From contig NZ_JAFIDN010000008.1 in the NCBI RefSeq assembly GCF_017921895.1, positions 62,001 through 126,000 on the forward strand: 64,000 nucleotides of DNA, given 5' to 3'. This stretch comes from Natronogracilivirga saccharolytica (GTDB lineage Bacteria > Bacteroidota > Rhodothermia > Balneolales > Natronogracilivirgulaceae). The notes beneath the pieces were generated by a model. It saw nothing but the letters and a program-made list of their open reading frames with translations. It made no database searches and was not told where the DNA came from. The stretch's first letter is position 1; each line of letters opens with the position of its first letter. Below, in pieces: positions 47,583 through 48,540 of the stretch. A program made the position numbers and the translations under genes.

Positions 47583-48059
47583 TCAGATCTGACCCGGAGG
47601 TGTTTCGGGTCTTGGCCTGGCTTCATCCTGATGATGATGCGGGTGCGTGCAGTAATGGGTGTGTCGGTTGTTGCGAAAGACGGTCCAGGCAAGCAGCAGT
47701 GCTCCGGCGAAAGTTACCGAAGTCCGCACCCAGGCCATGGCCGGAACAGAACCTCCGGAAATCTGGTCATGACTGACATGCAGGAAAAACTGGCTGAACA
47801 GAATCAGAACCAGACTCGTCACATAAAGCCCCAGCAACCGGTAATCTTTATGGCGCAGCCAGGTAGGTGCAAATCCGGCAAGGCTGATCGGGACAACGGA
47901 TATTACCAGGATTTGTTCAATTGTCTCTGAAAAAAAAGTGGATATCGCAGGCAGCAGCAGAAGAACCAGAGGTGTTGCCATGCAGTGTACAACGCACAAA
48001 GAAGACAGGATAATACTTAATCTGACAAACAGAGAACGTTTTTGAAATAGTTTTGTCAT
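47583..48059 (-). CDS. MerC-domain membrane protein with His-rich tail
   Basis: A 158-residue inner-membrane protein with four hydrophobic helices (about 11-38, 45-62, 72-92 and 108-128). The segment SLCVVHCMATPLVLLLLP carries the paired Cys of MerC-type metal transporters, and the cytoplasmic or periplasmic tail is rich in His (HTHYCTHPHHHQDE, about 133-146). MerC proteins carry mercuric or other divalent soft metals inward. Coupling to a Fur-family repressor (4-bp gap) suggests a zinc, iron or similar metal as the normal substrate rather than mercury resistance; no merA or merR is present. Confidence 0.8.
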   Translation of the reverse strand: MTKLFQKRSLFVRLSIILSSLCVVHCMATPLVLLLLPAISTFFSETIEQILVISVVPISLAGFAPTWLRHKDYRLLGLYVTSLVLILFSQFFLHVSHDQISGGSVPAMAWVRTSVTFAGALLLAWTVFRNNRHTHYCTHPHHHQDEARPRPETPPGQI

Positions 48060-48503: not shown

Positions 48504-48533
48504 AAAATATAACAAAAGTGCAACTCAGTTGCA
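48504..48533 (-). promoter_or_regulatory. fur-merC promoter with Fur-type 7-1-7 operator
   Basis: Read on the minus strand, TTGCAA and TATATT are spaced by exactly 17 nt. Across the -35 and spacer lies TGCAACT-C-AGTTGCA (48519-48533 on the plus strand), a perfect 15-bp palindrome with 7-1-7 geometry, the layout of Fur, Zur and PerR boxes. The start codon follows 20 bp later. Confidence 0.7.
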
Positions 48534-48540
48534 ATACCTT

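Follow-up and report, generated by a model that had tools for sequence, protein, structure and literature searches.

What role does a palindrome play in the promoter of an operon that joins a Fur-family regulator gene to a gene for a MerC-like membrane protein? The locus lies within a 64,000-nucleotide stretch of the Natronogracilivirga saccharolytica genome (the window). An earlier note had seen in the palindrome a 7-1-7 operator of the Fur/Zur/PerR type, and had suggested that it may define the recognition sequence of a distinct metalloregulator controlling a His-rich MerC-like transporter. Our analysis makes it highly probable that a zinc-sensing, Zur-type repressor of the Fur family uses the palindrome as its autoregulatory operator. 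The zinc-loaded dimer would silence zur-merC, and zinc shortage would derepress zur-merC together with a ZnuD-like operon.

Architecture of the fur-merC promoter

Read on the minus strand, the -35 box TTGCAA is followed after 17 bp by the -10 box TATATT and, 7 bp further on, by the ATG of the fur-family gene (48498-48496; Table 1). The promoter TTGCAA-N17-TATATT and the 20 bp between palindrome and ATG are as the earlier note had described them. The perfect palindrome is present as well, and the interval 48504-48533 assigned to it there comprises the palindrome and most of the -10 region. The palindrome begins one base within TTGCAA, one operator arm being the -35 box and the other lying in the promoter spacer. 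A gap of 4 bp separates the regulator gene from merC. From this anatomy we infer repression by occlusion, with the -35 site under the bound dimer.

Table 1. Features of the fur-merC locus (positions in the window)
Feature	Position	Strand	Basis
Operator palindrome TGCAACTCAGTTGCA, conserved unit TGCAAC-N3-GTTGCA	48519..48533	.	window sequence and ortholog conservation
-35 box TTGCAA, overlapped by one operator arm	48529..48534	-	TTG retained in 29/30 loci
-10 box TATATT, 17 bp past the -35 box	48506..48511	-	TA...T at same spacing in 28/30 loci
fur-family regulator gene, proposed zur, 144 aa	48064..48498	-	PF01475; invariant Cys4 and His
merC-family membrane protein gene, 158 aa, His-rich C-terminus	47583..48059	-	PF03203

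The operator core is conserved at orthologous loci

A search with the regulator across 59 genomes gave matches in 40 at E <= 1e-12, and the best 30 places, the locus of this genome among them, were fetched for alignment. TGCAA-N5-TTGCA stands directly upstream of fur in 29 of these loci, and in the remaining one (L032) the copy stands in the same register but has one mismatch. The earlier note had staked its proposal on the motif being present upstream of orthologous fur-merC operons, and there it recurs. The outer T that completes the TTG of the -35 box is found on one side only, in 29/30 loci, and the promoter geometry is fixed, with TA...T exactly 17 bp beyond TTGCAA in 28 of them. The ortholog sequences are related and not independent samples; the conservation argument rests on the contrast between the core and its unconserved flanks. 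The twelve core positions reach an information content of 1.6-2.0 bits in the site alignment, against 0.9, 0.2, and 0.6 bits for the middle three positions and 0-0.5 bits for the flank from -25 to -5 upstream of the site. Among the 29 ortholog sites, 27 are perfect 6-3-6 palindromes, eight are perfect 7-1-7 palindromes, and nine carry the inner T-n-A. The selected unit is TGCAAC-N3-GTTGCA and not 7-1-7: the latter geometry is present at this locus, as the note had said, but the form conserved among orthologs is 6-3-6. The conserved site also differs from the Fur box GATAATGATnATCATTATC, in agreement with the view that this is not a classical Fur core.

Bare palindrome statistics were dropped as evidence, since the window holds eight perfect 7-1-7 palindromes against a mean of 4.05 in 20 mononucleotide shuffles; the palindrome word with up to three mismatches occurs twice, with 2.93 occurrences expected. 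The significance of the palindrome was derived solely from its conservation across orthologs. A chance palindrome whose conservation is limited to the -35 box would fit this abundance, and the hexamer accounts for the conservation of one arm, but the second arm, in the promoter spacer, is equally strongly conserved, and many genomes have TGCAAC-N3-GTTGCA at zinc genes (see below). We give this explanation virtually no credence and regard it as already refuted by the conservation.

Two lower-scoring regulator places (G022, G031) have both site and merC, and two more distant ones (G020, G047) carry one-mismatch copies near the start of fur, with merC next after it. The fur ortholog of G005, another lower-scoring place, has no operator (best match with four mismatches), and no site within one mismatch was found at the second fur copies of G003 and G004. 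In three genomes of family f3 (G048, G035, and the C6 copy of G049), a one-mismatch site lies just behind the fur relative and not before it; at the C1 copy of G049, such a site lies 440 bp behind. The sequence TGCAATTGAGTTGCA, one mismatch off the core, was seen ∼35 bp behind a distant fur relative in f3 genomes (L333:1947, L335:2249, L336:2242).

The regulator is a member of the Fur superfamily

The protein matches the FUR domain PF01475 over residues 13-132 with 46.1 bits (cut-off 23.1), which places it in the Fur superfamily. The CxxC...CxxC pattern of this superfamily is formed by C100, C103, C139, and C142, which do not vary among 16 aligned homologs and are presumably its structural zinc site. 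The NCBIfam model of E. coli-type Zur (NF008646) gave 38.3 bits against a cut-off of 167, and the regulator was therefore not filed under that subfamily. With the PerR and Fur models, the score is as good as with the Zur model or almost so. All three matches being weak and similar, we abandoned the protein models as a guide to the metal. Sensing ligands of E. coli Zur include His77 and Cys88. In a pairwise alignment, His77 is partnered by H68, which is invariant, and Cys88 has no Cys partner. One other Fur-family gene was found in this genome; no such operator lies nearby (best match with four mismatches).

Genes behind the core point to zinc

Among the 59 relatives, 38 contain the exact core TGCAACNNNGTTGCA, with 67 occurrences in all, compared to five of the backwards pattern. 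We sorted these sites by homologs of the downstream genes, with gene calls taken as simple open reading frames. About half (34/67) lie at fur-merC loci: 31 before fur-merC, including two promoters with two sites each, and three in another family, with a short fur to one side and a divergent merC to the other. Two more precede a lone merC (G005, G036), 11 a COG0523/CobW GTPase, and one an ABC ATPase of the type found after COG0523. Eight are located at lipoprotein/TonB-receptor genes (six lipoprotein/TonB-receptor pairs and two lipoprotein-ZnuD-like operons). Five stand at other genes (two amino-acid permease, from two close genomes, two cytidylyltransferase, one S46 peptidase), and six were left without gene assignment. 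The site loci themselves supplied the reference proteins used to assign permease, cytidylyltransferase, and S46 peptidase, as well as several of those for lipoproteins and receptors, which makes these assignments partly circular. A search upstream of transport genes, which the earlier note had proposed as a check, revealed recurrence in the relatives, for instance at TonB receptors and lone merC genes.

By sequence, the genes behind the operator are a zinc-starvation set as expected of a functional Zur: COG0523, ZnuD-like receptors, and the regulator. The operator itself is of a known Zur type in that it has the core of the Desulfovibrio ZUR site, itself a prediction. It is the regulon genes that name zinc as the metal, the protein being uninformative, and the predicted regulon of TGCAAC-N3-GTTGCA is a zinc regulon. 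Alternatively, the regulator could sense iron, manganese, or peroxide like Fur, Mur, or PerR, with MerC carrying the matching metal. Its best NCBIfam match is indeed the PerR model (44.5 bits, under the cut-off of 180), its best PDB match is a Fur, and for the operator-linked TonB receptor of L108 the nearest matches, though weak, are ferric enterobactin receptors. But the core is that of a predicted Zur box, the Fur box quoted in PMC545781 is a different sequence, and COG0523 GTPases and ZnuD-like receptors are co-regulated, so we consider this alternative unlikely. These co-regulated genes point to zinc and not to an unknown metal.

Neither is the core itself new. In two Desulfovibrio genomes, Rodionov et al. 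(2004; PMC545781) predicted ATGCAACnnnGTTGCAT as ZUR site ahead of znuABC-zur, with the same twelve-base core at the same spacing and likewise a Fur-family gene in the operon. The idea that this core defines a new recognition sequence therefore found no support. The operons differ (znuABC-zur there, zur-merC here), and in the present site, where one arm is also the -35 box, the outer base kept on that side is T and not A. Control of COG0523 genes by Zur is established (Haas et al. 2009, PMC2770081; Cupriavidus metallidurans, PMC11340326). As predicted for the relatives studied here, COG0523 is under Zur there, as is the regulator itself in Cupriavidus, and some promoters have two sites, as here. 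In the passages considered, no box of the present sequence appears and merC is not a target; the COG0523 target is missing in this genome. Of the logos treated in a review (PMC6103462), the passage considered lists those of actinobacteria, Bacillales, enterobacteria, and cyanobacteria; the word Bacteroidetes does not occur in the review. A literature search for the operator motif turned up PMC545781 alone. So the operator type is old and already in print, the Desulfovibrio ZUR site being a prediction.

Across the phylum, the exact core was found in 102 of 395 genomes, and 30 new loci among the matches listed were fetched. The core lies directly upstream of merC in four of them (L289, L290, L302, L312), before a ZnuD-like receptor in five (L295, L300, L301, L303, L304), and before COG0523 in one (L311). 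At L287 it precedes a fur relative, as it does on its other side at L312, and at L307 and L308 an ABC ATPase follows 626-692 bp beyond the core. Seventeen of the 30 loci have none of the reference genes downstream. A wider scan of named genomes kept 80 loci from at least 443 relatives, and many of these loci showed no core. Exact cores near fur relatives occur also in Planctomycetota, in one Omnitrophota genome, and in Betaproteobacteria such as Methylobacillus. In the Omnitrophota locus (L160), the core precedes fur, followed by genes that by eye resemble znuA and ABC partners. Zinc regulons of Bacteroidota can be searched for with TGCAAC-N3-GTTGCA.

Some further arrangements were observed. 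The core stands directly before a cytidylyltransferase-like gene at L110:4353 (G026) and L113:4035 (G005), in two families with proteins 52% alike (PF01467 for L110); a zinc-starvation change of lipids or envelope is possible. The operator-linked COG0523 gene is followed by genes for an ABC ATPase and a DUF3526 ABC-2 permease at L108:970-4456 and L112:151-5000, and in some genomes by a gene for an FAD-type oxidoreductase.

The predicted regulon in this genome

Two exact cores were found in this genome, the fur-merC site and one on contig C17. The latter (C17:5795-5809, L002:1501-1515) lies near a RadC-domain gene, with no zinc gene within 1.5 kb. A loose search with TGCAANNNNNTTGCA and up to one mismatch was set aside, its 118 hits (37 with the pattern reversed) being too many for individual inspection. 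Seven places match TGCAANNNNNTTGCA exactly; no zinc gene adjoining those on C1, C14 (two), and C17 was seen by eye. Two imperfect operator copies are located at C3:427568 and C3:427595, ahead of two lipoprotein-like genes and then the gene for an 805-aa TonB receptor. A weight matrix built from the fur sites scored these copies 17.2 and 15.0, compared to 2.7 for the next best place in a 14-kb stretch. The best solved relative of the receptor is the zinc receptor ZnuD (PDB 4rdr and others; E 3.1e-30, next 5.3e-11); the receptor gene here comes after the two lipoprotein-like genes, for which no Pfam match was found. We re-fetched ten homologous lipoprotein-ZnuD-like operons with extra upstream DNA. 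Eight have at least one copy over the 95% level of composition shuffles; there is none in G007, and G046 is interrupted by a contig end. So the predicted regulon comprises at least zur-merC and the ZnuD-like operon, with the best site on the regulator itself. The operator-linked COG0523 gene has no close relative in this genome.

According to the proposed mechanism, the regulator would bind TGCAAC-N3-GTTGCA as a zinc-loaded dimer when zinc is plentiful, with the metal as co-repressor. Since the operator contains the -35 box and occupies most of the promoter spacer, RNA polymerase would be blocked and zur-merC switched off. When zinc is short, the repressor would leave the DNA, allowing regulator and MerC to be made, and the lipoprotein-ZnuD-like operon with its two weaker operator copies would be derepressed along with them. 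Against the Zur reading stand the Zur-model score, the lack of a Cys partner for Cys88, the G005 fur gene lacking a site, the missing COG0523 target, and the C17 core away from zinc genes.

MerC as a candidate zinc importer

The second gene of the operon encodes a member of the MerC family (PF03203; 72.8 bits, cut-off 27.6). It is next after fur in 28 of the 30 loci, the other two (L025, L041) ending at contig ends. A C-x-x-H-C motif in the first hydrophobic stretch is kept in all 28 aligned proteins, and MerC of the fur-merC operon has an additional tail with His and a Cys. The earlier note had very probably been right about an operator of the Fur-family regulator within the promoter of a fur-merC operon with a His-rich MerC-like product; transport by this product is a prediction from sequence.

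The shared PF03203 domain and the gene name could suggest that the operon confers resistance to mercury or heavy metals and that the Fur-type protein senses the toxic metal, and a related plasmid-borne merC in Tolypothrix is indeed adjoined by genes for an ArsR-type regulator and a heavy-metal ATPase. Unlike in mercury-resistance operons, the operon-mate of merC here encodes a Fur-family regulator and MerC has a C-terminal His-rich tail. We rejected identity with a mer operon because no MerA lies above the cut-off in this genome (seven matches, the best with 314.5 bits against 454). MerC was found in 57 of the 59 relatives, which looks like housekeeping, and the same operator precedes uptake-type receptors. 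A resistance operon is therefore very improbable.

The recurrence of merC in the zinc regulon suggests that MerC-family proteins import zinc. We base this proposal on the core recurring before merC, on the wide distribution of MerC, and on ZIP not being found in this genome (it is over the cut-off in 34/59 genomes). The sole ZnuA-type gene (C8:172342-173151, L211, outside the window) follows a gene for a DtxR-family regulator that also matches FeoA. This arrangement suggests manganese or iron as substrate of the ABC importer, a zinc role also being possible, and probably places it outside the Zur regulon. We tentatively propose, as a reading with somewhat less than even chances, that Bacteroidota MerC proteins are inner-membrane importers for zinc starvation, an unrecognised class of Zur-controlled permeases that would stand in for ZIP and ZnuABC in this Balneolales family. 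Zinc would pass from the ZnuD-like receptor via the lipoproteins to MerC with its C-x-x-H-C motif and His-rich tail. The Tolypothrix plasmid context counts against an importer role, as may the fact that Zur regulons can include non-importer genes.

No link of MerC to Zur or zinc was found in a search of literature titles and abstract openings. Compared to the operator, an element of an ordinary kind and well supported, merC as a recurrent member of a predicted zinc regulon appears new, not having been found in print, and MerC as a Zur-controlled zinc permease is a testable new idea. The widespread and misleadingly named MerC family is placed inside the predicted zinc-starvation response; if MerC imports zinc, it would supply the missing inner-membrane step in genomes without ZIP.

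In two f3 genomes (L234 in G057, L250 in G050), merC lies without operator beside genes for a small protein and a COG0523-like protein. By eye, the small protein has the look of a ribbon-helix-helix regulator (no Pfam match was found), and this arrangement may be an alternative means of controlling the same set of zinc genes.
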